Below are positions 535-20,119 of a stretch of 24,077 nt of DNA, piece after piece (positions within the stretch are counted from its first letter, which is position 1; the number at the start of each line of letters is the position of its first letter). The stretch is taken from the IMG/VR virus record IMGVR_UViG_3300018432_000046, positions 1 to 24,077 of that record; one strand, 5' to 3'. The notes beneath the pieces are model-generated. The model did no database searches, was not told the DNA's origin, and saw only the letters and a list, made by a program, of their open reading frames with translations. The DNA is from a virus. The translations under genes and the position numbers were made by a program.

Positions 535-1989
535 TCAGCGACGCGTGCGGGGCACGACGACGAGACGATGCTCAGGGCCGCGCAGACCGACGCTGCGGCC
601 GGGCAGCAGCTCGACGTGGTCGACGTACGTTGTGATCACGCGGCGCTGTTCAGCGATCGTGCCGTGCTCGAGCAGCTCGAGCGACTCGTCGACGTCAGGG
701 CGGTCGTCGATCGGGAGCTGCGCAAGCTCTCGCTGCGCAGCGTTCTTCGACTCGTCGAGCACTGCTCGTGCTTCGTCGTAGTCGAGATCGTCGAACGCGT
801 CGTCGACGTCCGCGGCACGTCGTGCGAGATCACGACGACGCTCGGCGATCTTCGACAGCTTCGTCGTCAGCTCGTCGCGACGTGCAGCGTGATCGTCGCT
901 GCCGTTCCACTCGGCCGCGACGGTCGGGTTGCGCAGCCCGTCGCGCACGAGAGCGAGCACGTGCTCGTCGACAGGCAGCTCGACGATCGACGTGCAGCCG
1001 TCGACGCAGCGGTAGATGCGCTCGTGCACGGGCTTGCCGCGACGAGTGATGTCACGCTCGATCCCGTACGCAGGCTTCGTGCAGACGCCGCAGCGGATGA
1101 TCGTCGACAGCAGATGACGTCGCGTCTTGCGGGCGAGCTTAGGGCCGCGCTCAGCGAGCACTGCGCACATCTCACGCCACTTCGACTCGTCGAGGATCGG
1201 GTCCCACGTGCCCGTGCGCTCGACGCCGTCGTGGGTGAACAGAGCCACATGCGTGGGCGACTCGAGCATCTTGCGCAGGTTGCCGTTGCGCCACTGCCCG
1301 CCGCGACGGGTCGCGATGCCGCGTTCGGTGAGGTCGTCAGCAATCGACGTCAGTGTGTGCCCCGCAAGCACGCGGTCGACGCAGTCACGCACGATGTCTG
1401 CTTCGTCGTCGACCACCTTGAAGCTCGGCGCCGCGACTTCGTAGCCGAACACGGGTTGGCCGAGATGCGGCAGACCCTTCGCTGCTCGAGCGTTGCGGCG
1501 CTCGCGGCCGCGCACCTTCATGACACGGATCTCGTGCTCGTCGATGACGGACTTGATCCCGGTCACGAGACGCTCGCCGCCGTTGCGCCATAGCTCGCCG
1601 CCGCGGTAGCTGTGCACGCTGTCGACGCCCGCAAGCTCGGCTTTGTCGAGCCAGTTGTCCCAGCGAGCAGCGCCGCGGATCAAGCGTGACTGCTCGCACG
1701 AGATGACGACGCAGATGCGGCCAAGAGCGAGCGCGTCTTGCAGTGCTTCCCAGCCGGGCCGGAACACGTCTTCGTCAGCCGCGGTCAGCGACGGGTCAGA
1801 GAACACGAGCACGGGCACACCGGGGAAGTGCAGCGCTGCGTACGCCCGCCCGAGTTCCTCTTGGTCGTGCACGCCCTCTTTCTTGCCGCGGTGGTCGTCA
1901 GAGATGCGCACGTAGATGGCGACGTAGCGCACGCTCGGTTCGCTGTCGTTGAAGAGCGGCAGCTCAGCCGCACTGGTGATGGCTGTCAT
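535..1989 (-). CDS. int: Large serine recombinase (phage integrase)
   Basis: A 484-aa site-specific recombinase that would join attP and attB through a 5'-phosphoserine intermediate. The N-terminal resolvase domain has YVRIS with nucleophile Ser30 and Arg28, and a second active-site motif EQSRLIRG. A recombinase domain follows, then a zinc ribbon with Cys300, Cys303, Cys328 and Cys332. After that comes a helical coiled-coil segment typical of large serine integrases that controls directionality. Length is normal for the family. I chose ATG 1989 (MTAITS) because AGGA lies 7 bases upstream; a start 10 codons earlier would translate the leader repeat. It is transcribed from its own predicted promoter. 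Several HTH proteins in the window are candidate directionality factors. Confidence 0.96.
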   Translation of the reverse strand: MTAITSAAELPLFNDSEPSVRYVAIYVRISDDHRGKKEGVHDQEELGRAYAALHFPGVPVLVFSDPSLTAADEDVFRPGWEALQDALALGRICVVISCEQSRLIRGAARWDNWLDKAELAGVDSVHSYRGGELWRNGGERLVTGIKSVIDEHEIRVMKVRGRERRNARAAKGLPHLGQPVFGYEVAAPSFKVVDDEADIVRDCVDRVLAGHTLTSIADDLTERGIATRRGGQWRNGNLRKMLESPTHVALFTHDGVERTGTWDPILDESKWREMCAVLAERGPKLARKTRRHLLSTIIRCGVCTKPAYGIERDITRRGKPVHERIYRCVDGCTSIVELPVDEHVLALVRDGLRNPTVAAEWNGSDDHAARRDELTTKLSKIAERRRDLARRAADVDDAFDDLDYDEARAVLDESKNAAQRELAQLPIDDRPDVDESLELLEHGTIAEQRRVITTYVDHVELLPGRSVGLRGPEHRLVVVPRTRR

Positions 1990-1999
1990 CGGGGGTCCT

Positions 2000-2019
2000 G
2001 TCTCGTCAGTGTGTGTCAC
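2000..2019 (-). repeat. 20-base leader repeat, copy 2
   Basis: Identical to 474-493. It starts 6 bases after the predicted -10 box of the integrase promoter and ends 10 bases before the integrase ATG, again covering the expected transcription start. Confidence 0.8.
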
Positions 2020-2025
2020 ACGACG

Positions 2026-2053
2026 AGCATACTCCGATGAGTCCGAGTATCAA
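2026..2053 (-). promoter_or_regulatory. Predicted integrase promoter with overlapping dyad
   Basis: On the - strand, TTGATA (2048-2053) and TATGCT (2026-2031) are 16 bases apart. The inverted repeat ATACTC/GAGTAT (2029-2034 and 2045-2050) overlaps both boxes, so a bound repressor would block polymerase. A second site, the 20-base repeat, follows at the predicted +1. The promoter is predicted by eye and untested. Confidence 0.55.
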
Positions 2054-2061
2054 CTACGTGC

Positions 2062-2100
2062 GACACGCTCGACGGCGGCACCCCCTCGCCGGATCGTGTC
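2062..2100 (-). terminator. Nested inverted repeat between accessory operon and integrase promoter
   Basis: GACACG (2062-2067) pairs with CGTGTC (2095-2100), and CGGCG (2073-2077) pairs with CGCCG (2087-2091), leaving a 9-base C-rich loop. It starts 12 bases beyond the stop of the 2113-2466 gene, so it may end the leftward accessory transcript before the integrase promoter. There is no T-run on the - strand. A serine-integrase attP next to int is an alternative reading. Confidence 0.4.
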
Positions 2101-2112
2101 AGCAGCTCGAAG

Positions 2113-2466
2113 CTAGTCGAACCGGTCGGTGCGCTTCGCCGCGCCGAGATCTCGCAAGTCGGTGCCCTTGCGGCCACCTTTCATGAAGGCGTCGAACAGC
2201 TTGTCGAATTCCGACGTGATGTGAGCCACGGCGCTGTCCATCGCGCTGCGAAGCGTGTCCGCGTAGTCATCAAGTCCGGCTTTCACGGCAGCGTCGATGA
2301 GCGCTCGCACGTCGGTCGCGATCGCTTCGTCACGTTCGTGCCGCAGCTCGCGGATCACTCGACGAGCTTCCTTCAGCTCTGAGCGCACTTCGCTGAGCAT
2401 CGTGCGCGCTTCGGTGGCTTGCGCCGACAGCTCGTCGATCAAGCTCGTCCAGTCGCGTTCGCTCAT
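2113..2466 (-). CDS. Coiled-coil protein, unknown function
   Basis: Encodes 117 aa. Residues roughly 10-50 form a charged heptad-like helix (SEVRSELKEARRVIRELRHERDEA), followed by a second amphipathic helical part and a basic tail ending KRTDRFD. There is no membrane segment or Cys. The start ATG overlaps the stop of the upstream gene (ATGA) and has a full AGGAGG site, so translation is coupled but also independently strong. The upstream partner is a two-TM protein with a cytoplasmic tail, so a membrane-associated pair is possible. The family is not recognised. Confidence 0.8.
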   Translation of the reverse strand: MSERDWTSLIDELSAQATEARTMLSEVRSELKEARRVIRELRHERDEAIATDVRALIDAAVKAGLDDYADTLRSAMDSAVAHITSEFDKLFDAFMKGGRKGTDLRDLGAAKRTDRFD

Positions 2467-2741
2467 GACCCCTCCTGTCGCATGCGCTCAGCTTCGATCC
2501 GGAGCAGTGACTCGTCGAGCCGGTGGCCGAGCCGCGACGTCGAGCGCACGTTGAGCGCGGCGAGCATCGGCAGAACGACGAGCGCTGCCCAATTCCAGCG
2601 TGAGCCACCGGCGAAGAGCGCGAACACGTTCACGACCCAGGCGAACAACAACAAGCCGAGCACGATGCGCAACCAGCGTCGCGACCGGTGAGCGGTGGCG
2701 ATCGTCGTTCGCTCCCACTCGTCGAGACGGCTCCGATCCAT
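2463..2741 (-). CDS. Two-TM small membrane protein
   Basis: Encodes 92 aa. A basic N-terminus (RSRRW near residues 20-24) precedes TM1 at about 25-44 and TM2 at about 49-66. A charged helical tail of some 25 residues follows. The positive-inside rule places both ends in the cytoplasm. ATG 2741 has AGGAG 6 bases upstream. The 3' end overlaps the next gene by ATGA. The size and topology resemble prophage membrane proteins that alter the host surface or block superinfection, but no motif proves this, and a holin-like role is less likely away from a lysis cassette. Confidence 0.8.
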   Translation of the reverse strand: MDRSRLDEWERTTIATAHRSRRWLRIVLGLLLFAWVVNVFALFAGGSRWNWAALVVLPMLAALNVRSTSRLGHRLDESLLRIEAERMRQEGS

Positions 2742-2788
2742 ACGTGCTCCTGCCAGAATGGCTCATGCGAACACCGGGCCGGGACGTC

Positions 2789-3055
2789 TCAACGTTCTGG
2801 CTCGGCCTCGTGGTCGGTCTGACCGCAGCGAGCGTGTTCGTCGTGCTCGTGCTCGCCGCGGTTGTTGCTCGCTGTCACAGCAGCGTTGCCTCCGGTCAGA
2901 CGAACGAATTCGTTCCAGCACTGCTCGCACCCGACCGTGCGCCGCACTGAGAACTTCAACGTCACGCCCGCTAGCGCTGTGCCCGTGGCGTCGACGACGT
3001 AGAACCGTTCGGTGCCGGGTCGTTCGCCGCAGCGATGACACAGCTCGTCGCTCAT
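2789..3055 (-). CDS. Zinc-ribbon small protein, unknown function
   Basis: Encodes 88 aa starting at ATG 3055 (MSDELCHRCG), which overlaps the upstream stop as ATGA. CHRCG at residues 6-10 and CEQC near 43-46 form a likely four-Cys zinc ribbon enclosing a beta-rich segment (RFYVVDATG...VTLKFSVRRTVG). The tail is His/Glu-rich and probably disordered; its codons are the antisense of a hydrophobic-looking stretch on the + strand, which I judged a shadow. The next leftward gene starts 47 bases beyond the stop. Confidence 0.7.
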   Translation of the reverse strand: MSDELCHRCGERPGTERFYVVDATGTALAGVTLKFSVRRTVGCEQCWNEFVRLTGGNAAVTASNNRGEHEHDEHARCGQTDHEAEPER

Positions 3056-3411
3056 GACAGCCGCGCCATGCATCGTGCGCAGTACGGGCGGTCGTTCATG
3101 AGCTTCCAGTCGGGCGGCATGCGAGCAACGACGTCATCGTGTTCGTCAGGTTGCAGCAGCACCGCAGCCGCGGTCTGACAGCCAGCGCAGCGGATCGCCG
3201 ACTGCAACTTCGTCGAGAACGTCGCGAGCACGCGCATCGTGCGGTCGATCTGCTCGAGCGCGATGCCCAGCAGGCGGGTCACGAAAAAGGACCACACGAG
3301 CATCACGAAGTACATCCAGCGCCACGGCACGGGCCAGCGCAGCAGCGTCGTGCACAGCAGGATCATGATCGTCGCCAGCGCGAGCGCTGCGTTCAGCGTG
3401 ACTGGTCTCAT
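3052..3411 (-). CDS. Two-TM protein with cytoplasmic zinc ribbon
   Basis: Encodes 119 aa. TM1 spans about residues 4-24 and TM2 about 33-52, joined by a short Trp/Pro/Arg-rich loop. A soluble C-terminal domain carries CAGC (75-78) and CARC (111-114), a likely zinc ribbon. The first 70 residues are therefore membrane anchor plus a short helix. ATG 3411 overlaps the previous stop, and its own stop overlaps the next start, so it is inside a coupled cassette with a zinc-ribbon protein and an HTH protein. A membrane-tethered sensor or exclusion protein is a guess from architecture. Confidence 0.8.
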   Translation of the reverse strand: MRPVTLNAALALATIMILLCTTLLRWPVPWRWMYFVMLVWSFFVTRLLGIALEQIDRTMRVLATFSTKLQSAIRCAGCQTAAAVLLQPDEHDDVVARMPPDWKLMNDRPYCARCMARLS

Positions 3412-3848
3412 CGGTTCGGTGGCTGGACACGGCCAGCGTCGATCCAGTCGGCGATGTCACTGCGGCGATAGCGCACCCGACCGCCGACGCGGACGTACGC
3501 AGGGCCGCGCTGCTGCTGTCGCCAGTTGCGTATCGCTCGCACGCTCGTCGCGAGCTGCTGCGCGACTTCGACCTCGTCGAGCAGATCGTCGGGGGTGCGC
3601 TCACGCTGTCGTGCGAGCACTTGCACGCCGTCAGCGTCGCCGTTGAGCACGGCCTCGAGCAGTTGCACGATGTTCTGTGCGATCGCATGGGCACTGACGT
3701 TCTCGCTGCGCTCGTGCGCGTCGTACCACGCCGTGACGGCGACCCGAAGCTCGTCGGCGGCGTCGAGCAAGGGCGACGCTGACACCGCCAGCGAGCAATA
3801 CCGCGTGCCGTCGTCGGTCGTGAGCACGTGCGGGCACTGGTCGGTCAC
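3408..3848 (-). CDS. HTH_17/MerR-like DNA-binding protein with N-terminal Cys motif
   Basis: Encodes 146 aa from GTG 3848, overlapping the upstream stop as GTGA. The C-terminal 55-60 residues are a helix-turn-helix of the excisionase/AlpA class: DEVEVAQQLATSVRAIRNW, then a wing with YVRVGGRVRYRRSDIADWI. The N-terminus has Cys5, His7 and Cys18, a possible metal site, followed by a helical segment. The fold suits a recombination directionality factor, an operon regulator, or a small DNA architectural protein; for serine integrases the directionality factor is unpredictable by family. The 70-residue N-terminal helical part makes it longer than a simple Xis. Confidence 0.8.
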   Translation of the reverse strand: MTDQCPHVLTTDDGTRYCSLAVSASPLLDAADELRVAVTAWYDAHERSENVSAHAIAQNIVQLLEAVLNGDADGVQVLARQRERTPDDLLDEVEVAQQLATSVRAIRNWRQQQRGPAYVRVGGRVRYRRSDIADWIDAGRVQPPNR

Positions 3849-6344: not shown

Positions 6345-6718
6345 ACGCCCCTGCTCGAGCGATCACGAAGCGCGGGTTCGAGCCGCTGTGGCACTTCACG
6401 TGCGAGCACGGCGCCGCGGGCATCGGTCGACGCGGCACGTTGAAGCCGCACGCGGCGCCGCACATGCCCGAGCTGGGGGCGATCGTCTGGCTGACAGACA
6501 ATTCGTCGCCGACGTCGCGCTACGACCTCGGGCTGACGTCTCGACTGCTGCGCTGTGATCGCATGGCGTACCGCTACCGGGTGTCCGCGCCTGACGCGAT
6601 CCCGTGGGCGGGTGTGTCGCATCGACTGCCCGTGCAGCTCTGCGCTGATCTCGAGTCGCTCGCTGACCCATCGACGTGGTGGGTCTCATTCGTGCCGGTC
6701 CCGGCGTTACAGGCATGA
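6341..6718 (+). CDS. ADP-ribosyltransferase-like small protein (tentative)
   Basis: Encodes 125 aa from ATG 6341 (ATGA overlap with rusA). The beginning LWHFTCEHGAAGIGRRGTLKP, then VWLTD and LGLTS, resembles the start of small ART-fold enzymes of the His-Tyr-Glu type, where a YHxT-like strand supplies the first NAD-binding residue (here His18). A later CDRMAYRYRV strand and a Trp-rich end fit a compact alpha/beta fold. A clear catalytic Glu could not be assigned. Alternatives are an inactive ART-like domain or an unrelated fold. If active it could modify host proteins, RNA or DNA early in infection. Confidence 0.45.
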   Translation: MNAPARAITKRGFEPLWHFTCEHGAAGIGRRGTLKPHAAPHMPELGAIVWLTDNSSPTSRYDLGLTSRLLRCDRMAYRYRVSAPDAIPWAGVSHRLPVQLCADLESLADPSTWWVSFVPVPALQA

Positions 6719-6879
6719 CTGCCATGACGTCGACGCACGGAGGTACCGCCGTCGCTGCACGACGGTGCAGCTCACAATCGAATCACCCAGGCGGCGCAGT
6801 GCACATTGCCCGACCTGGGACGTGTTCGCCGCGGTTGGTGAGCACAGCATGCCGGGACCGGCGCGGTGGGGGTGGCTCA

Positions 6880-7101
6880 ATGACGAAGCTCTGCCCGATC
6901 TGCGGGGCGCTGTACGTCTACCGCCTCACGAAGCGCTCGCCGATCGAGCCGCGGCACTGCGGTGCGCTGCGTTGTCGAGCACTGCACGACTGGACAGACG
7001 ATGACTGGGCGGGTGCTGCACGAATGGCTCGTGCTCGAGCACGTGTCGGCATCGAACTGTCGACGCTCGACGAGCACGCACACGAACGGAGCGAACGATG
7101 A
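6880..7101 (+). CDS. Zinc-ribbon small protein
   Basis: Encodes 73 aa from ATG 6880 behind a G-rich ribosome site. CPICG (residues 5-9) and a HCGALRC segment (about 28-34) form a likely four-ligand zinc ribbon around a basic beta strand. A helical Ala/Arg stretch follows (AARMARARARVG). ATG 6715 is an alternative in-frame start that would overlap the previous stop, but the added 55 residues look non-coding. The 160-base gap (6719-6879) holds a perfect 7-bp hairpin at 6754-6771 with loop GACG. Its 3' end overlaps the next start (ATGA). Confidence 0.7.
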   Translation: MTKLCPICGALYVYRLTKRSPIEPRHCGALRCRALHDWTDDDWAGAARMARARARVGIELSTLDEHAHERSER

Positions 7102-7313
7102 GCGACGACCGCGAGCGTTATCACGGCGCGGGTCTAGGGACGGTGCACTGCCTCGACTGCGGTGGGCATCACGGCACGGGCCTCGAAGCGGTGCACTGCG
7201 ACATCCGCGTGCACGGCGTCACGAAGACACGTGAACGGCTCGAGCGCTTTCTCGAGCCGCATCTCGTCGACTCGCTCATCCGTCGAGCACGCGCCACGAC
7301 GCGGAAGACATGA
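7098..7313 (+). CDS. Small Cys/His-rich protein
   Basis: Encodes 71 aa from ATG 7098 (ATGA overlap). The internal near-repeat GLGTVHCLDCGGHHGTGLEAVHC contains three Cys and several His residues, suggesting metal binding, followed by a basic helix (TKTRERLERFLEPHLVDSLIRRAR). The two halves begin GAGLGTVHC and GTGLEAVHC, a possible small internal duplication. The family is not recognised. It directly precedes the methyltransferase gene. Confidence 0.7.
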   Translation: MSDDRERYHGAGLGTVHCLDCGGHHGTGLEAVHCDIRVHGVTKTRERLERFLEPHLVDSLIRRARATTRKT

Positions 7314-7316
7314 GCG

Positions 7317-8129
7317 ATGAGCGTGACGTACTACGTCGGCGACGCTCGCAGAGCGTTGAATCGACTCGACGACGACAGCGTCGCGTGCGTGGTGACTTCG
7401 CCGCCGTACTGGGGCCGTCGCTCGTATACCGACCTGCCCGACGAGATCGGGCGCGGCTCGCTCGACGACTATCTCGATGATCTCGTCGACGTGTTCGAGG
7501 TCGTGCAACGCAAGCTCTCGAGCGACGGGCTGTGCTGGCTCAACGTCGGCGACACGGCCGCGGGGTCGGGTGGCGCTGGCGGTGACTACAACGTTGGCGG
7601 TCGACACGCAGGCAAGCCGCGCTATCGGCAGGGCGACGCGGGCATCGTCGGGCATCAATGGTGCGACGTGCCTGGTCGGCTGTTGCATCGTCTGCAAGAC
7701 GATCTGGGGTGGCTGTGTCGCTCCCAGATCGTCTGGGATAAGGGGCGCACACGTCCCGAAGATCTGGGGCACGTGCGTCGACCTGGCGAGCAGCACGAGA
7801 TGATCTACATGCTCGCTCGCAGCGCGCACTACGTGTTCCATCACGAGCTGCTCGTCGGTCGCGGTGACGTCTGGACGTTCCCGCCGAATCGCGAGCGCAA
7901 CGGCTCATCCGCGTCGTTCCCGACTGAGCTGCCTGAGCGGTGCATCAAGCTCTCGGCTCTCGGTCGGGTGCTCGATCCGTTCGCGGGGTCGGGTGCGACG
8001 CTCGTCGTCGCGCAGGGCTACGGGCGTGACTGTGTCGGCGTCGACATCGACGCGACGCAAGCTGACGCGGCACGTGACCGACTGGGCATGTTCCTCGATG
8101 TCGTCGAGCTGTCGAGCGTCGAGACATGA
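7317..8129 (+). CDS. DNA methyltransferase, permuted m4C/m6A type
   Basis: Encodes 270 aa. The catalytic motif TSPPYWG (27-33, SPPY type) comes before the AdoMet-binding motif DPFAGSGAT (220-228) and VGVDID, the permuted beta-class order. SPPYW most often goes with N4-cytosine methylation, though N6-adenine enzymes share it. About 180 residues between the motifs hold the likely target-recognition part, including a Gly-rich segment near 85-105. No restriction endonuclease is adjacent, so it is probably an orphan enzyme that protects phage DNA. ATG 7317 is preceded by GAAG; an ATG at 7310 is out of frame. Confidence 0.92.
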   Translation: MSVTYYVGDARRALNRLDDDSVACVVTSPPYWGRRSYTDLPDEIGRGSLDDYLDDLVDVFEVVQRKLSSDGLCWLNVGDTAAGSGGAGGDYNVGGRHAGKPRYRQGDAGIVGHQWCDVPGRLLHRLQDDLGWLCRSQIVWDKGRTRPEDLGHVRRPGEQHEMIYMLARSAHYVFHHELLVGRGDVWTFPPNRERNGSSASFPTELPERCIKLSALGRVLDPFAGSGATLVVAQGYGRDCVGVDIDATQADAARDRLGMFLDVVELSSVET

Positions 8130-9733
8130 GCAGCTCTGTCGAGCGCTTTCTCGAGGCGGCTGTCGAGCGGGCGAAGCCGCCGATGGATCACTGGAATCGC
8201 TACTTGCTGCCTGGTCGGGACGGCAAGAAGGCGAAGGGGCGCACTCGAGTCACGACGATCGCGCAGTCGATCAGCGACAAGTTCCAGCTCAACGCGTGGC
8301 AGATCCGTATGACAGCGATCGGTCTCGCGCATCATCCCGACCTGCTCGCAGGGGTGGCGTCGCTCGCGACGGTCGACGTCGACAACAAGGCGCTCGACAA
8401 GATCTGCGCGGAAGCTCGAGAGCGTGCGGGTGCGAACGTCGGGGCGAACCTCGGCAACGCATTGCATCGCTTCACTGATCTCGTCGACAGCGGGCGTGAC
8501 GTCATCATCCCGGCCCCGTGGGACGCAGACATCGCTGCGTACGTGAAAGCGATGAGCGACGCAGGCATCGTCATTCACCCTGAGTGGATCGAACGTGTCG
8601 TGCTGCTCGAAGAGCTGAACGTCGCAGGCACGTTTGATCGCATCGTCGAGCTGCCCGGCGTGGGCCTCGTCGTCGCAGATCTCAAGACAGGCAAGGACGT
8701 CTCGTACAAGCACGACGAGTTCGCTGTGCAGATGGCTCTCTACGCCCACGGCGACGCGCTGTGGCGAGCAGCGACCAACGATTACGAGCCGATGCCTGAC
8801 GTGAGTCACGACGTCGGCATCGTCATGCACGCCCCGGTCGGTACGGGCACGTGCACGCTGTACGAGATCGACATCGCAGAAGGCTGGAAGACGGTCGAGC
8901 TATGCATGGCAGCTCGAGCGTGGCGCTCACGCAAAGATCTGGCGCGCCCCCTGTCGGCACGGGCCAACGCGCCAGAGGGCCAGGTCAGCGAGGTCGGATC
9001 GCAAGATCTGCGGGGACTCGACAGCGAGTGGATCATGCGGCGCTTCGCTGGCCTGGCCGACCACGAGCAAGCTCGACGTCTCGCCGCGCTCGGCTGGCCG
9101 AAGGGTGTGCCTGTCGACCCGCCGTGGTCGCCAGAGCAGGTCGAAGCGCTCGCGGACATGCTCGACGACATCGAAGGCGAAGTCGGTGCGCCGTTCGGTG
9201 CTGAGCAGCCGAGCGAAGCTGCGAAGCCGCACAAGCGCTTGCGTCAGCCTGACGTGACGCTGATCGAGCGTTGCCCTGACGTGGTGATCGACGATCGCTC
9301 AGAGGCAGTCAGCCGCGACGAGGTCGACGCGATGCGCGCTGTGCTCGCGATGCTGACGCCGCCGCAGCTCGCTCGCATCAGGCAATGGTCGACAGAGGCA
9401 CGCCGCGAGGGGCGCACGATCGACATCGTCGACGGGCGACTGACAGAGCGCGGCTGGTCGATCTTGCGGGCGGCGTACGTCTGCGCGACGCGGCTCTGTC
9501 CGCAGCCGAGCGACGGCGCGACAGGCATCGACGAGACGCGTGTGCGCGCCGCGCTCGCGGTGGTGCTCGATCGAGAGTTCGCACAGTCGTGGTGGGTCGG
9601 CGCAGTGCTCGGCTCGCTCACACAGGACGAAGCGGTTGCGCTCTGCGGCATCGCAGACGCGTACGCGGCGGGCGACAGAGACGCGATCGACGCGGTTGAC
9701 AACGCCGTCGTCGATCTCGACGCACCGTTCTAG
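8126..9733 (+). CDS. PD-(D/E)XK nuclease, RecB/Cas4-like, with long C-terminus
   Basis: Encodes 535 aa, starting in an ATGA overlap with the methyltransferase. GTFDRIV supplies Asp171, and VVADLKTGK supplies Asp185 and Lys187, the core of a PD-(D/E)XK nuclease. A following Q-MALYAHG helix matches the RecB-type QxxxY motif. The preceding helix GANLGNALHRFTDLV gives the conserved His seen in RecB/AddB-like exonucleases. The C-terminal 250 residues contain a linker, an Asp-rich segment and helical repeats (EAVALCGIADAYAAGD). No helicase motif is present. Likely role: exonuclease for recombination or end processing, or part of the replication module. Confidence 0.82.
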   Translation: MSSSVERFLEAAVERAKPPMDHWNRYLLPGRDGKKAKGRTRVTTIAQSISDKFQLNAWQIRMTAIGLAHHPDLLAGVASLATVDVDNKALDKICAEARERAGANVGANLGNALHRFTDLVDSGRDVIIPAPWDADIAAYVKAMSDAGIVIHPEWIERVVLLEELNVAGTFDRIVELPGVGLVVADLKTGKDVSYKHDEFAVQMALYAHGDALWRAATNDYEPMPDVSHDVGIVMHAPVGTGTCTLYEIDIAEGWKTVELCMAARAWRSRKDLARPLSARANAPEGQVSEVGSQDLRGLDSEWIMRRFAGLADHEQARRLAALGWPKGVPVDPPWSPEQVEALADMLDDIEGEVGAPFGAEQPSEAAKPHKRLRQPDVTLIERCPDVVIDDRSEAVSRDEVDAMRAVLAMLTPPQLARIRQWSTEARREGRTIDIVDGRLTERGWSILRAAYVCATRLCPQPSDGATGIDETRVRAALAVVLDREFAQSWWVGAVLGSLTQDEAVALCGIADAYAAGDRDAIDAVDNAVVDLDAPF

Positions 9734-9770
9734 CCATCCCGGCTGGACGTCACAGAAAGCAGGTGGTCGC

Positions 9771-10175
9771 ATGAGCGACGTTCGAAAGTTCCTCGACGAG
9801 AACGCGTCGGGTGGGCACGAGAAGTTCAACTTCGACAAGGTCGGCGACGCGATCGCTGGCGAGATCGTGGGCGTCCCGAAGATGGTGAACACCCGCTTCG
9901 GCGAGTGTCTCGTGCTCGACGTCAAGCCTGACAACGGCGAGCCGCGCACAGTGTTCGTCGGTGACGGCCCGATGGCTCGAGCTGTCGCACAGGCTGTGCG
10001 CGACGCGGGCGCAGACGATCTCGCGCAGGGCGCACGGATCGGCATCCGGTTCGCGGAGACGCAGCCGTCGAAGACAGCGGGCTTCAACGACGCCAAGATC
10101 TACGACGTCGGGTATGAGCCGCCGCGCTCGAGCGTGTCGGTCGACTCGATCTTCGACCGCGCACGCGGGTCATGA
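9771..10175 (+). CDS. Probable OB-fold ssDNA-binding-like protein
   Basis: Encodes 134 aa from ATG 9771 with AGGTGG 5 bases upstream; a 37-base gap separates it from the nuclease gene. The core GDAIAGEIVGVPKMVNTRFGECLVLDVK, then TVFVGDGPMARAVAQAVRDAG and GARIGIRFAETQPS, reads as beta strands and one helix in OB-fold order. Similar small proteins in actinophages sit between nuclease and primase genes and are thought to bind single strands. The usual SSB aromatic and acidic-tip pattern is not obvious, so the call is structural inference. Confidence 0.5.
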   Translation: MSDVRKFLDENASGGHEKFNFDKVGDAIAGEIVGVPKMVNTRFGECLVLDVKPDNGEPRTVFVGDGPMARAVAQAVRDAGADDLAQGARIGIRFAETQPSKTAGFNDAKIYDVGYEPPRSSVSVDSIFDRARGS

Positions 10176-14761: not shown

Positions 14762-15118
14762 ATGCCTCGACGACCACCCAGTGCGTGCACCCAGCCTGGC
14801 TGGCCACGCTGCCCCAACCCAGCGAGCGACCACGGTCGCTGCGACGAGCACGCTCGACCAGCCTGGTCGGGCAGCACACGCGCACGACACGTCAAGACGG
14901 GTTCGTCAGCTCGACGACGACGTGTCATGCGACGCGACGGCTGGCGTTGCGTCACGTGCGGTGCACCTGCTGACGAAGTCGATCACGTGATCAACCTCGC
15001 TCGAGGCGGCGAAGACACGATCGAGAACATGCAAGCTCTATGTCACGCGTGTCATCGCACGAAGACGACACGCGAAGCGCTCAACGCACGACGACAGCGT
15101 CGAGCGCCAGAGCGCTGA
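14762..15118 (+). CDS. HNH endonuclease
   Basis: Encodes 118 aa from ATG 14762 (MPRRPPSAC); ATG 14738 is an alternative and neither has a clear ribosome site, so the family's usual start decided. Cys9, Cys17, His24, Cys27 and His30 are potential zinc ligands near the N-terminus. The HNH fold is complete: Cys63/Cys66, Asp74-His75, Asn89, Cys94/Cys97 and His98. Phage HNH proteins near terminase genes nick or cut DNA and in HK97-type phages are needed for genome packaging. Here it lies 2.9 kb before the small terminase, so a packaging role is plausible but not certain; a free-standing homing-type nuclease is the alternative. Confidence 0.88.
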   Translation: MPRRPPSACTQPGWPRCPNPASDHGRCDEHARPAWSGSTRARHVKTGSSARRRRVMRRDGWRCVTCGAPADEVDHVINLARGGEDTIENMQALCHACHRTKTTREALNARRQRRAPER

Positions 15119-15447: not shown

Positions 15448-15654
15448 GTGCCCACTCGCAAGCCCCGCACTGCACCCGCCAGCACAGCGAGCGCCACGTG
15501 CCCCCGCGTCGACGACAACCACGTCGAGTGTGGTCAGCCTCTCGCGAACGTGCGTGAGCGACCGCTCGGCTGCTGCCTGCCCACGTGGGTCACGATCGGC
15601 GAGTGTCCGATGCACGGCATCGTGCCCGCGTCGCCAGAGCTGATCAGCGCGTGA
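15448..15654 (+). CDS. Small Cys-containing protein, coupled to the PLP enzyme gene
   Basis: Encodes 68 aa from GTG 15448 with a perfect AGGAGG 5 bases upstream, and its stop overlaps the next start (GTGA); these two signs make it a confident gene despite its size. After a Pro/Ala-rich start come CPRVDDNHVECGQPL, LGCCLPTWV and GECPMHGI. The five or six Cys plus His residues suggest a compact zinc-binding fold of the rubredoxin/ribbon kind. Position implies a joint role with the PLP enzyme and ParB-methyltransferase. The family is not recognised. Confidence 0.75.
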   Translation: MPTRKPRTAPASTASATCPRVDDNHVECGQPLANVRERPLGCCLPTWVTIGECPMHGIVPASPELISA

Positions 15655-16541
15655 GCGCAGCGCAGCTCGCGCCGCGCACGAACCGTGATCGCTCCGTCGT
15701 CGACGCTGACGAGCTGACCCCGATCGACTGGCACGACGGCGTCGCGTACAAGCGCGACGACCTGTTCATGCCCTACGCAGATCTCGACCTGTCCGGCGGC
15801 AAAGTCCGCCAGATGATCCGCCTCGTCGAGACGCACGAGCAGACGATCCGCGACGAGTACGACGCGACGTTGCTGAGCGCGACCGGCGTCGACAGCCCGC
15901 AAGGTCTGATCGTCGCTCGAGTCGCTGCTGCCTATGCGATGTCGTGCGTCCTGTTCGTCGCGACACGCAGCTACAGCAGCGCGATCACCCGCTATCGCAT
16001 GCTGCGTCGAGCTGCCTGCCTCGGGGCCACGATCGACACTGCTGCCCCGCTCGGGTACGAACCCGTGCTCGCTCGACGTCTCGACGAGTACCGCGCCGAG
16101 CACGGTGGCTACCCCATCCGCTTCGGCATCGCGGCCGACACCGACAGCGCAGCGCTGCTCGACACCACCGCGGCGCAAGCAGCGAACATCCCCGACGACG
16201 TGACGACAGTTGTCGTGCCAGTCGGGGCCGGGATCACCGCGGCAGGCATCCTGGCCGGGGTCCGCGATCACTGCCCGCACGTGACACGCGTCGTGCTCGT
16301 GCAGGTATGCGGCTACGACCGACGCGAGACGATTGAGCGTCTCGCCCCGAACTGCCCGTACGAGTGGCACGCCGAGACGCGCTGGCAGTACCACCACCAG
16401 CTCCGACGCCGCGTCGACGAGCTGACGTTCGATCCGATCTACGAAGCGAAAGCGCACGCGTACATGACCGATCGTCTCGACGACCTGCCGCGCGGACGCA
16501 CCCTGTTCTGGTGCATCGGCAATTCGGCGCACGTCCGATGA
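15651..16541 (+). CDS. Fold-type II PLP-dependent enzyme, ACC deaminase/D-cysteine desulfhydrase-like
   Basis: Encodes 296 aa from GTG 15651 (GTGA overlap). It follows the ACC deaminase/D-cysteine desulfhydrase plan. YKRDDLFMPYADLDLSGGK supplies Lys51, the expected PLP Schiff-base residue (equivalent to the GGNK motif). ATGVDSPQG gives Ser82 at the substrate-carboxylate position. VVVPVGAGITAAGILAG (Gly192-Gly199) is the phosphate-binding Gly-rich loop. An ATRSYSSAITRYRMLRRAACLGATI helix-strand unit is also typical. The real substrate is unknown. It is unusual in a phage head-proximal operon and sits directly before a ParB-methyltransferase fusion, which points to amino-acid-derived base modification rather than metabolism. 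Confidence 0.85.
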   Translation: MSAAQLAPRTNRDRSVVDADELTPIDWHDGVAYKRDDLFMPYADLDLSGGKVRQMIRLVETHEQTIRDEYDATLLSATGVDSPQGLIVARVAAAYAMSCVLFVATRSYSSAITRYRMLRRAACLGATIDTAAPLGYEPVLARRLDEYRAEHGGYPIRFGIAADTDSAALLDTTAAQAANIPDDVTTVVVPVGAGITAAGILAGVRDHCPHVTRVVLVQVCGYDRRETIERLAPNCPYEWHAETRWQYHHQLRRRVDELTFDPIYEAKAHAYMTDRLDDLPRGRTLFWCIGNSAHVR

Positions 16542-17986
16542 GCCTCGCCGAGCAGAACTACGAGATGGTCGCCATCAACGCGCTGCGACCGCACCCTGAC
16601 AACCCCCGCAAAGGCGACGTCGCGGTCATCCACGAGTCGATCAACGCGAACGGCTTCTACGGCGCAGTCATCGTGCAGTCGAGCACGCACCGCATCATCG
16701 CCGGAGAGCATCGCTGGCTCGCCGCGCAAGACGCGGGCATGACACACGTGCCCGCGATCGTGCTCGACGTCGACGACGAGACAGCTCGACGCATCCTGCT
16801 CGCTGACAATCGTGCGAACGATCTCGCGACGTACGACACGAGCGCTCTCGCCGAGCTGCTGACAGACATCGTCGACCTGACCGGCACCGGGTTCACCGAC
16901 GCGGATCTCGCCGCGCTCGTGCCACCCGACCTCGACGGCGACGCACTGCTCGACGACGACAGCGAACCACCCCCGACCGGGTCGACTCCCCGACCAGGCG
17001 ACATCTACTCGAGCGATCGCGTCTCCGACGAAGCGTTCAGCTACTTCCGCAAGAGCGGCTTCCCGTACCGCAACGTCCCCGTGTACGAGTCGATGCTCGC
17101 CATCAACGCGCTAGCGCACACTGACGACGCTGCGCTCGAGCGCACGAGTCGAGCGTGCACCGTCGCTGACTCGTACTGCCATCACCGCTGGGACGTGCAC
17201 GCGGATTCGAAGCCGTCGCCGCTCGAGACGTTCAACCGTGACGATCGTCTGCGCGGCGCGATCGAGATGGCTCACCAGAACGGCGCGCTCAGCAACCGCT
17301 ACTCGATCCTCGGCATTCTCGGCCTCTACCGCGGCACGCAGACAGCACGGAACTTCCGACCGGGCTTCGCGCTCAAGTACATGCGCAAGTTCTGCCCCGA
17401 CGACGGCACGATCCTCGACACGTCGATGGGCTTCGGCGGTCGACTCGTCGGTTTCTTCGCCTCGAGCGCTGCGCACTACGTCGGTATCGACCCCGCGGTC
17501 GACACGTATCACTCGAATCGACGACTCGTCGACGAGCTGTGCCCACCCGACAAGACATGCGAGCTGCACAACGTGCCCGCGGAAGACTTCGACGTTGACC
17601 CGATCCGCGGACGCTGCGACTTCGCGCTGACGTCACCGCCGTACTTCGACCGCGAGCGCTACAGCAACGAAGACACGCAGAGCTGGAAGCGCTACAGCAC
17701 GCTCGAGCGCTGGGTCGACAACTTCCTCGTGCCGACGTGTCAGCTACAGCACGACGCCCTACGACCCGGCGCGCACTCAGTGATCGTCATCAACGACGTC
17801 AAGCCGCGCGACGGCTCGCCAGCGCTGCCGCTCACTGATCTGACGATCTCTGCTGCGACGAGCGTCGGCTTCGAACACATCTCGAGCGACGGCTACGCGA
17901 TCAAGCAGCACTTCCACCCCGACGCGGACAAGTTGCCCGACGTCGAGCCGACGCTGATCTTCCGCAAGCGCGAGGTGTCGTCATGA
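16538..17986 (+). CDS. ParB-like domain fused to SPPY DNA methyltransferase-like domain
   Basis: Encodes 482 aa, ATGA-coupled to the PLP gene. Residues about 9-100 are a ParB N-terminal domain (LRPHPDNPRK at 16-25, GEHRW at 56-60, LLADNRAND). An acidic linker (about 130-160) leads to an all-alpha part. The Rossmann methyltransferase part has ILDTSMGFGGRLVGF (Asp294) as AdoMet motif, VGIDPA, and LTSPPYFDRERY (Ser366-Tyr369) as catalytic motif. Order is motif I then IV, unlike the permuted enzyme at 7317. ParB-methyltransferase fusions in phages and mobile elements are linked to DNA modification. The extra-long SPPYFDRERYSNED region is typical of a subfamily whose base target is not established. 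Confidence 0.88.
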   Translation: MSLAEQNYEMVAINALRPHPDNPRKGDVAVIHESINANGFYGAVIVQSSTHRIIAGEHRWLAAQDAGMTHVPAIVLDVDDETARRILLADNRANDLATYDTSALAELLTDIVDLTGTGFTDADLAALVPPDLDGDALLDDDSEPPPTGSTPRPGDIYSSDRVSDEAFSYFRKSGFPYRNVPVYESMLAINALAHTDDAALERTSRACTVADSYCHHRWDVHADSKPSPLETFNRDDRLRGAIEMAHQNGALSNRYSILGILGLYRGTQTARNFRPGFALKYMRKFCPDDGTILDTSMGFGGRLVGFFASSAAHYVGIDPAVDTYHSNRRLVDELCPPDKTCELHNVPAEDFDVDPIRGRCDFALTSPPYFDRERYSNEDTQSWKRYSTLERWVDNFLVPTCQLQHDALRPGAHSVIVINDVKPRDGSPALPLTDLTISAATSVGFEHISSDGYAIKQHFHPDADKLPDVEPTLIFRKREVSS

Positions 17987-18444
17987 AAGGTCCGTCGCCC
18001 GAACCGCGTGCGCTCAAGCTGCTCAAAGGGACACGCAAAGACCGCATCAACGACAGCGAGCCGCTGCCGCGCAGTGTTCTGCCTGTCTGCCCTGACGACG
18101 TCGCACCCGAAGTGCGCGAAGTCTGGGACTACACCCTCGCTGAGCTTGTCGCGATGCGCACTGCCGCGGCTGCTGACCGCGACGCGCTGTTGTGCTACTG
18201 CCACGCTGTCGTCACGCATCGCAAAGCGTGTCGACTGCTCAAGTCGAGCGACGTGCTCATGAAGGGCCGCTACGACGCGGTCGTGCGCAACCCGGCTGTA
18301 GCGATCCAGCGTGACGCCGCGTTCGCGATCAGGCAGTTCGCTCAAGAGTTCGGGTTGACCCCGAGCGCTCGCACGCGCATCGAAGTCGATCAGGACGCGA
18401 CGAGCGCAGTGATCGGCAACCCGTTCAGTGGCACTGGAAGCTGA
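17983..18444 (+). CDS. terS: Terminase small subunit, P27 family
   Basis: Encodes 153 aa. The start KGPSPEPRALKLLKGTRKDRIN is the hallmark of P27-type small terminases. A helical core follows (VREVWDYTLAELVAMR and DRDALLCYCHAVVTHRKACRLL), then an IRQFAQEFGLTPSARTRI C-terminal motif. The protein recognises phage DNA (cos/pac) and hands it to the large subunit. ATG 17983 overlaps the preceding methyltransferase stop (ATGA), so packaging is translated with the modification module. Its stop lies inside the large-subunit gene start. Confidence 0.93.
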   Translation: MKGPSPEPRALKLLKGTRKDRINDSEPLPRSVLPVCPDDVAPEVREVWDYTLAELVAMRTAAAADRDALLCYCHAVVTHRKACRLLKSSDVLMKGRYDAVVRNPAVAIQRDAAFAIRQFAQEFGLTPSARTRIEVDQDATSAVIGNPFSGTGS

Positions 18445-20119
18445 CCAGCTCAAGCTGTCACCCGAAGTCGCGTGGTATCTCGACGATCGCGGCATCGCGC
18501 TACCGACGTGCCCGCCGCTGATCAAGACTCCCGAACCGAGCGGGCTGCCCGACGCGCAGTTCGATCCCGACCGCGTCGACCGCGTGCTGAACGTGTTCAA
18601 GATGCTGCGCCACACTCAAGGCGACTGGGCAGGTCGACCGCTCACGCCTGACCCGTGGCAGATCGCGTACATCATCGCCCCGACGTACGGGTGGGTACGT
18701 CAAGTCGAAGGTCGCACGCTGCGCATCGTGCGCACGCAGTACGTCGAAGTGCCTCGCAAGAATGGCAAGACGACGATGGCAGGCGGGCAAGCGACGTACC
18801 TCACTGCCGCGGACGGCGAAGCAGCCGCGCAGGTGTACGCAGTCGCAGCCGCGAAAGATCAGGCCCGCTACTGCTTCGACCCAGTGAAAGCGCTCGCGGA
18901 GAAGTCACCCGCACTGGCGGCGTACTCGAAAGTCACACGCGATCGCATCGTGCACGTGCCGACCTCGAGCTACTTCACCGTCGTCAGCTCGGTCGCCGAT
19001 CTGCTGCACGGCGCCAACATCTACGCAGCAGTCATCGACGAGCTGCACGTGCACAAGACACGAGCGCTCGTCGAAGCCGTCGAGACAGGCACCGGGGCAC
19101 GCTCGCAACCGTTGATTCTGATCATCACCACCGCCGATGACGGTCGACAAGCGACCGTGTACGCGGAGAAGCGCGACTACGTCGAGCGTGTCGCACGCGG
19201 CTCGATCATCGACCCGACGTTCTACGGCGTCGTCTGGGCCGCGCACGACGACGACGACCCGTTCAGCGAAGAGACATGGGAGCGAGCGAACCCCGGCTAC
19301 GGCATCTCGCCGACTCGAGCGTTCATGTCAGCGACAGCAGCGAAAGCACGACAGTCGCCAGCGACGCTCGCGAGCTTCAAGCGATTGCATCTCGGCATCC
19401 GCACTCGACAAGAGAGCCGCTGGATCGACATGCCCGCATGGGACGCGAACGCGAGCATCGTCAACGCGACGTCACTGCACGGCAAGCGCTGCTTCGGCGG
19501 ACTCGATCTCGCGTCGACATCCGATCTGTGCGCTGTCGCGTACGTGTTCCCCGACAGCAACGGCGCTCACGACGTGCTCTGGCGTCACTGGCTGCCCGAA
19601 GAGTCACTACGCACGCTCGACGAGCGCACAGCAGGCCAGGCGAACGTCTGGGCACGACAGGGCTTGATCGAGCTGACACCCGGCAACGTCACCGACTACG
19701 GCTACATACGACGAGCGATCGCCGCGGATCACGAGCACTACGACATCGCCGAGATCGCGTACGACCCGTGGAACGCATCGCAGCTCGTGAACGACCTGCA
19801 ATCTGACGGGGTCAACCTCGTCACCCACCGACAGGGCTACGCGTCGATGTCGTCGCCGACGAAAGAGCTGCTGCGACTCGTGCTCGAGGGCACCGCGCAG
19901 CGACCGCGGCTGCGACACGGCGGCAACCAGCTCATGCGCTGGCAGATCGACAACTTCGCCGTCGAGATGGACGCGGCAGGCAACGTCAAGCCTTCGAAGC
20001 GACATGCAGGCGACAAGATCGACGGCGTCGTCGCCCTGATCATGGCGCTCGATCGAGCAGCTCGACGCACGCCGAAGTTGCGCAGCGCGTACGAGAACCG
20101 CGGCGTGACCGTCGCGTAG
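18428..20119 (+). CDS. terL: Terminase large subunit
   Basis: Encodes 563 aa from GTG 18428, 17 bases inside the small-subunit gene. The ATPase has VPRKNGKTTMAGG as Walker A (Lys114) and AAVIDELHVHK as Walker B (Asp204, Glu205). The RNase H-like nuclease carries FGGLDLASTSD (Asp360), a central AYDPWNASQL strand and DKIDGVVALIMAL (Asp529, Asp532). Length and motif spacing fit HK97/Terminase_1 type enzymes that cut and translocate DNA into procapsids. No frameshift is seen. A 13-base gap follows before the next gene. Confidence 0.97.
   Translation: MALEADQLKLSPEVAWYLDDRGIALPTCPPLIKTPEPSGLPDAQFDPDRVDRVLNVFKMLRHTQGDWAGRPLTPDPWQIAYIIAPTYGWVRQVEGRTLRIVRTQYVEVPRKNGKTTMAGGQATYLTAADGEAAAQVYAVAAAKDQARYCFDPVKALAEKSPALAAYSKVTRDRIVHVPTSSYFTVVSSVADLLHGANIYAAVIDELHVHKTRALVEAVETGTGARSQPLILIITTADDGRQATVYAEKRDYVERVARGSIIDPTFYGVVWAAHDDDDPFSEETWERANPGYGISPTRAFMSATAAKARQSPATLASFKRLHLGIRTRQESRWIDMPAWDANASIVNATSLHGKRCFGGLDLASTSDLCAVAYVFPDSNGAHDVLWRHWLPEESLRTLDERTAGQANVWARQGLIELTPGNVTDYGYIRRAIAADHEHYDIAEIAYDPWNASQLVNDLQSDGVNLVTHRQGYASMSSPTKELLRLVLEGTAQRPRLRHGGNQLMRWQIDNFAVEMDAAGNVKPSKRHAGDKIDGVVALIMALDRAARRTPKLRSAYENRGVTVA

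Follow-up and report, generated by a model that had tools for sequence, protein, structure and literature searches.

A pyridoxal-phosphate enzyme coupled to a ParB-methyltransferase fusion in a virus: a candidate two-enzyme module for DNA base hypermodification

Why would a virus set a gene for a pyridoxal 5'-phosphate (PLP) enzyme directly against one for a ParB domain fused to a DNA amino-methyltransferase (MTase), just ahead of its terminase genes? The question is raised by a 24,077-bp linear virus record with a G+C content of 66% (IMG/VR record IMGVR_UViG_3300018432_000046, positions 1 to 24,077; hereafter the window), in which the two proteins, P0002 and P0003, are encoded by adjacent genes. 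We consider it likely that the two proteins work together as a single system by which the phage hypermodifies bases in its own DNA. The pair, which recurs in numerous unrelated phages, probably decorates DNA bases with an unusual group, by a route absent from the literature searched.

The PLP enzyme and the ParB-MTase fusion

All three open reading frames (ORFs) predicted at the locus, a small Cys-rich ORF and the two enzyme genes, were confirmed, and they are flanked by an HNH gene on the 5' side and by terminase genes on the 3' side. The Cys-rich ORF overlaps the PLP gene by GTGA (15651-15654), the PLP gene overlaps the ParB-MTase gene by ATGA (16538-16541), and the latter overlaps the small terminase gene (TerS) by ATGA (17983-17986). 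All four are therefore stop-start coupled and, as a preliminary description of this DNA had noted, the module runs straight into TerS (Terminase_4, 2.3e-20). The two enzymes and their landmarks are:

15651..16541, + strand: fold-type II PLP enzyme P0002, 296 aa (PALP, phrog_3650, AlphaFold2 (AF2) model, fold matches, conservation)
15801-15803, + strand: codon of Lys51, the Schiff-base lysine of P0002
15894-15896, + strand: codon of Ser82 of P0002
P0002 residues about 190-199: Gly-rich phosphate loop
P0002 residues 264-267: C-terminal YEAK motif
16538..17986, + strand: ParB domain-amino-MTase fusion P0003, 482 aa (ParB_N, 1.2e-12)
16559..16810, + strand: ParB_N domain of P0003, residues 8-91 (Pfam; matches Spo0J/ParB chains in PDB)
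17012..17977, + strand: Rossmann MTase domain of P0003 (motifs invariant in 24 homologues; AF2 model)
17351-17362: NFRP of P0003, motif X-like
17417-17452: motif I of P0003, DxSxGFGGRLxG
17633-17644: motif IV of P0003, SPPY; the motif order, I then IV, is gamma-like

P0002 matches Pfam PALP (1.7e-12, above the cut-off) and PHROG 3650 (3.7e-31), and structure comparison of its AF2 model (predicted local distance difference test score, pLDDT, 94) gave Z 24.4 to 1j0a, a homologue of 1-aminocyclopropane-1-carboxylate (ACC) deaminase, Z 24.0 to D-cysteine desulfhydrase, and further matches to CysK-type folds. With its PALP fold, Schiff-base lysine and Gly-rich phosphate loop, it belongs to the fold-type II enzymes. 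Lys51 and Ser82 are each conserved in 52 of 53 non-redundant family members and Gly192 in all 53, and Tyr264-Glu265 and Lys267 are retained in 52-53 of the same set; the active site is therefore under selection. The fold, the Schiff-base lysine, a YE(G/A)K motif and the Gly-rich loop are common to P0002 and the ACC deaminase/D-cysteine desulfhydrase enzymes, but P0002 differs from ACC deaminase in that its best PDB sequence match has an E-value of only 0.0064, the S-N-Q substrate loop reads S-P-Q, and it scores 22.3 bits against the NCBIfam curated cut-off of 392 for ACC-deaminase equivalogs. A tblastn search of P0002 directly against phage records found nothing useful.

The C-terminal MTase of P0003 has no Pfam match and matches PHROG 12517 only. 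The residues S366-P-P-Y369 and D294..GxGGRL are nevertheless invariant across its 24 homologues, and the model, confident in the Rossmann domain and uncertain in the linker (residues 93-155), is a Rossmann MTase nearest to the RNA amino-MTases Trm11, TrmN and Trm14 (Z about 18). Its Rossmann fold, S-adenosylmethionine (AdoMet) motif I and SPPY tetrapeptide agree, in sequence and model, with the [DNS]PP[YFW] signature of a predicted DNA amino-MTase. Partition ParB proteins combine ParB_N with a helix-turn-helix, whereas P0003 has the ParB_N match only and its C-terminal part is the MTase. The architecture is that of ordinary phage ParB-MTase fusions (N4C/N6A methylation), which differ in having no PLP partner. 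Profile matches, conservation and structure models for 15651-16541 and 16538-17986 uphold what the preliminary description had read from the letters: a PLP enzyme with Lys51, Ser82 and the Gly-rich loop intact, followed by a ParB domain fused to an SPPY MTase domain.

Pairing across viruses and the thymidine pathways

A search with the PLP subfamily of the window found 107 relatives in IMG/VR, and 80 loci (numbered with the prefix L) were fetched. The PLP gene mostly adjoins a DNA MTase gene in these loci or shares a contig with one. On sequence grounds, a second PLP clade is tied to DNA METHYLTRANSFERASES, apart from the thymidine-type clade discussed below. The partner MTases belong to at least three families, and three arrangements predominate. 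The PLP gene is followed by a ParB-MTase gene, as in the window, in L096, L101 and L102 (4 kb apart in L100), and L096 repeats the full window order of PLP, ParB-MTase, TerS and large terminase (TerL) with a PLP enzyme 56% identical. In marine viruses with T4-like replication genes, inspection gave the order SPPY-MTase, PLP, beta-class MTase. Finally, both activities are predicted within single polypeptides: PLP-ParB-MTase chains in L153 and L164, and a PLP domain that interrupts an SCPPY-type MTase after motif II and before motif III/IV in L157, L168, L170 and L175. The insertion point is clear on alignment with the uninterrupted gp1 of Mycobacterium phage Vincenzo.

The MTase-type loci number 46 after removal of redundancy. 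In 28 of them an MTase profile matches within 5 kb of the PLP gene, and inspection found an MTase in or beside the PLP ORF in four more (L154, L155, L168, L170); across whole contigs, the SPPY-MTase (MTA) profile matches 37 of 49 MTase-type contigs. In PLP trees the thymidine-type clade is set apart (support 100/100) and the window enzyme lies inside the ParB-MTase clade (100/99). The PLP-linked enzymes fall in separate places in the MTase tree, where "not linked" labels rest on incomplete contigs; at least five label changes are forced by well-supported branches, which means that the two enzymes were brought together, or parted, on more than one occasion. The co-occurrence on which the preliminary description had staked its case is therefore widespread, repeatedly assembled, and found even as single-chain fusions.

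Cultured phages carry the module as well. Pseudanabaena phage Pam4 has the PLP domain inserted within the MTase (Pam4_70, 830 aa), and Erythrobacter phage ZS04 has a PLP-like insert in its MTase (ZS04_7). Staphylococcus phage Alsa_1 has separate MTase and PLP genes 1 kb apart, and Vincenzo gp1-gp2 (L179, NC_028934) are a ParB-MTase and a PLP enzyme. In the insert of ZS04_7 (L182, 2326-4764) the SP and YEAK motifs typical of the family are gone, with YDAK present; to judge by these residues, it is possibly degenerate or altered in function. Erythrobacter phage R6L also carries the module, with a PLP part that is possibly degenerate.

The PLP enzyme could instead serve metabolism or counter-defence with no link to the MTase, for example by using up AdoMet or an amino acid, and be its neighbour only by chance. 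Its nearest structures are metabolic deaminases and desulfhydrases, and some loci have no visible MTase partner. This is very unlikely given the single-chain fusions and insertions, the repeated pairing with different MTases, and the location of the genes in a DNA-modification slot (see below).

The first PLP relatives found (L003-L005, L011-L014) accompany genes for ParB, a 2-oxoglutarate (2OG)/TET-JBP dioxygenase, an amino-acid:DNA transferase (AADT; Pfam ADDT, 2.9e-17) and a P-loop kinase, often directly 5' of TerS and TerL; these are short contigs in which not every operon gene is present or visible. That PLP enzymes recur in phage base hypermodification, as the preliminary description had stated, is borne out by these operons. 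PHROG 3650 is common to P0002 and the L003 enzyme (2.2e-97), marking the two as homologous, and the latter has matches of about 40% in 346 phage records, most of them from Ackermannviridae, whose DNA carries 5-(2-aminoethoxy)methyl-2'-deoxyuridine (5-NeOmdU) (PMC11721090). The window thus resembles the thymidine systems of phages ViI (5-NeOmdU) and M6 (5-(2-aminoethyl)-2'-deoxyuridine, 5-NedU) in its homologous PLP enzyme, an often present ParB gene and the adjacency to TerS and TerL. Those systems have a kinase, AADT and TET, whereas none of these was matched with the window module, which has a DNA amino-MTase in their place, and its PLP enzyme belongs to a different clade.

Might the window simply show part of a thymidine pathway, with the TET or hydroxymethylase, kinase and AADT genes outside the 24-kb fragment? 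PLP homologues do lie in such operons (L003, L005, L011-L014), and Vincenzo combines a ParB-MTase and PLP enzyme with a kinase homologue: gp4 (2559-3152), annotated as terminase small subunit, matches the 5-hydroxymethyluracil (5hmU) DNA kinase profile at 5.9e-47. The terminase label of gp4 is, from this match, likely a misannotation. Vincenzo has no AADT or TET profile match; because of the kinase match of gp4 it was rejected as a clean MTase-only example. However, a TET, AADT or kinase gene lies within 5 kb in 0 of 46 MTase-type loci versus 5 of 6 thymidine-type loci. None of the 49 MTase-type contigs, the longest of which reach 110 kb, matched AADT, with positive controls including L013 recovered. 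For the 5hmU kinase the same contigs gave nothing beyond a single borderline hit, a P-loop stretch of 28 residues at 8e-4; the control L013 scored, and the sensitivity of this profile is limited, since it missed the Ackermannviridae record JX181828. The AADT, kinase and TET profiles also found no match in Pam4, Alsa_1 or ZS04, whose genomes were deposited as complete, and conversely the SPPY-MTase profile matches 0 of 8 thymidine-type records. In the window, itself a fragment, there is no local-profile match to AADT or 5hmU kinase and no TET match (the hydroxymethylase was not searched for), and the modification slot is fully visible with none of these genes in it. Missing genes were consequently rejected as the main explanation and are extremely unlikely to account for the locus; the earlier suggestion that further pathway genes lie elsewhere has become less likely.

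Several loci stand out within the PLP family. A group of marine viruses (L108-L123, L144, L147) has the PLP gene with no MTase nearby, the contig of L147 having a distant MTase match. A scan of genome contigs gave two loci only. L176, a contig of a Chloroflexi metagenome-assembled genome (PCAX01000075), carries the marine MTase-PLP-MTase triad and is probably viral sequence binned with the bacterium. L177 of Bradyrhizobium sp. SRS-191 has a chromosomal PLP relative (8983-9771) beside a 633-aa protein with an NPPW motif, and no ParB or phage MTase profile match; this relative may serve the host in modification or defence. In L009, a radical-SAM-like protein (6587-7780) overlaps the start of the SPPY-MTase gene and is absent from the close relative L010.

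Candidate chemistry

If the two enzymes act jointly, the SPPY Rossmann domain would use AdoMet to act on the exocyclic amine of adenine or cytosine, with the ParB domain serving to load it on DNA or to target it. Instead of, or besides, a methyl group, the base would receive the 3-amino-3-carboxypropyl (acp) arm of AdoMet. The PLP enzyme would then form a Schiff base with the alpha-amino group on the DNA and remove or rearrange the group, the simplest outcome being decarboxylation to a 3-aminopropyl base; such a step would parallel the PLP step of ViI-like phages, which acts on an amino acid joined to the base and, as reported by Lee et al. (2018, 2021), decarboxylates it there. The PLP enzyme would require an alpha-amino group, the MTase would handle no amino acid other than AdoMet, and the PLP homologues presumably work where an amino acid sits on the base; the simplest joint reading is acp transfer followed by trimming. 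We tentatively propose, as a possibility short of an even chance, that a DNA-MTase-fold enzyme installs, or helps to install, the acp arm and that a PLP domain, sometimes of the same polypeptide, trims it to an aminoalkyl base. RNA acp transferases of the TYW2, Tsr3 and DTW types would be a chemical precedent for transfer of acp from AdoMet to a nucleobase; they act on RNA whereas the window system concerns DNA, and the likeness considered is one of chemistry.

A number of points weigh against this reading. No MTase is seen in the available sequence of at least 7 of the 46 PLP loci. Conversely, of 80 loci retrieved with the MTase as query, 78 lack a PLP gene in the flanking sequence obtained, which argues that the MTase works without the PLP enzyme. 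The window is a 24-kb fragment of a virus genome. Neither the sequence nor the model of the MTase separates methyl from acp transfer: the top structure matches are tied within a few Z, the likeness to the aminopropyltransferase BpsA (Z 15.6) is level with that to many methyltransferases, and acp transferases are not among the structure matches listed, which excludes nothing. Since the partner MTases come from several families, acp transfer would need a repeated origin.

That most homologues of the window MTase occur without a PLP gene would also fit an MTase that only methylates, next to a PLP enzyme that separately adds an alanyl group by beta-replacement or acts on another group. Fold-type II enzymes are the classical beta-replacement catalysts, P0002 has the CysK-type fold matches given above, and the plant willardiine and lupinic-acid synthases of the same fold perform beta-replacement with nucleobases. 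The repeated linkage of the PLP enzyme to the MTase, and its insertion in it, would remain unexplained, and we judge this account unlikely.

A somewhat unlikely route reverses the order of the two steps, with the PLP enzyme first converting AdoMet (e.g. to decarboxylated AdoMet) and the MTase homologue transferring the altered arm. This would better explain the pairing of a single PLP family with MTases of many families, and the BpsA likeness, tied as it is, also speaks for it. To our knowledge, no fold-type II AdoMet decarboxylase has been described, and the closest PLP homologues accompany an AADT gene, a hint that the substrate is attached to DNA and not free. A phage precedent for an analogue synthase working with an MTase homologue is CmoA/CmoX with carboxy-AdoMet (PMC12783734). 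The CmoA-CmoX-CmoY 5-carboxymethylcytosine system resembles the window module in being phage-encoded, in having an MTase homologue as entry point and in the ParB proteins of many of its clusters (PMC12783734), but CmoX is a C5-cytosine MTase that uses carboxy-AdoMet and is followed by an AMP-forming ligase, whereas the window pairs an SPPY amino-MTase with a PLP enzyme. P0003 has SPPY, not the SPPC of CmoX, and no separate search for CmoA was made.

Two loci have oxygenase genes beside the pair. In L067, two 2OG-Fe(II) oxygenases (2OG-FeII_Oxy_3 and Asp_Arg_Hydrox; 1838-3591) lie between the MTase and PLP genes, and in L127 one similar oxygenase gene (7826-9004) precedes the PLP gene. These enzymes may hydroxylate the base-linked side chain, and those of L067 suggest that some versions of the module go further.

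The literature searched, the coverage of which is incomplete, yielded no report of a DNA amino-MTase that has a PLP enzyme as partner or fused domain. Thymidine hypermodification, the carboxymethylcytosine systems and the component families are known, and the PLP-MTase arrangement looks new. Should acp transfer and trimming prove correct, they would make up a new amino-acid hypermodification route without hydroxymethyluracil, kinase or AADT. If the two enzymes do form one system, phages would make elaborate DNA bases with a small module, open to gene fusion, whose starting point looks like a common DNA methyltransferase. What is labelled "DNA methylase" or "ParB" beside a PLP gene would in that case belong to hypermodification, nanopore "methylation" calls would need careful reading, and new nucleosides would be predicted that are testable in cultured phages. 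The module would also offer handles for amine-tagging of DNA and for studies of restriction/CRISPR evasion.

The slot 5' of TerS and neighbouring features

The module is bounded by the following features:

14951-15118: HNH gene, upstream boundary of the locus
15448..15654, + strand: small Cys-rich ORF, 68 aa, overlapping the PLP gene by GTGA; ORF confirmed
17983..18444, + strand: small terminase TerS (Terminase_4 2.3e-20, phrog_83), 3' end of the modification slot
18428..20119, + strand: large terminase TerL (phrog_9, 1.7e-150), query for relatives with other cassettes in the slot

A search with TerL found 44 relatives, and the slot was compared among phages with TerL at 51-71% to that of the window. 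The slot holds a ParB-MTase without a PLP gene in L194 and L210, a PLP gene plus an MTase in L154, a ParB protein and C5-MTase in L185, ParB with TET and a TET-associated glycosyltransferase in L189, ParB with a TET-associated glycosyltransferase in L214, a ParB-beta-MTase in L202 and L215, and the 7-deazaguanine genes QueD/QueE/FolE with a TGT-like protein in L187. The slot 5' of TerS is a hot spot for the swapping of base-modification cassettes. Because TerL relatives carry different cassettes, the window module is one of several exchangeable ones, and its nearness to TerS therefore needs no special packaging role; the proposal that modification takes place specifically before packaging is not supported, the exchangeable slot being the better explanation of this adjacency. 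ParB is nearly constant among the swapped cassettes of this phage lineage.

The Cys-rich ORF has coding-like third-position G+C (GC3 = 0.83), and no family match in profile searches; neither the related loci nor 50,697 phage records contain a homologue. As it is also not kept 5' of the PLP gene in relatives, it was rejected as a part of the module, for which the preliminary description had counted it, and on this comparison it probably lies outside the conserved unit.

A second, beta-class N6/N4 DNA methyltransferase (PF01555, 8.5e-26) is encoded at 7317-8129 of the window, distant from the module. It was considered as a counterpart of the final MTase in the marine MTase-PLP-MTase triad, but its resemblance to the L067 gene is one of common motifs only and no such role is claimed. 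At 535-2019, on the - strand, the window encodes a large serine recombinase (Resolvase and Recombinase domains), and the virus is thus probably temperate.

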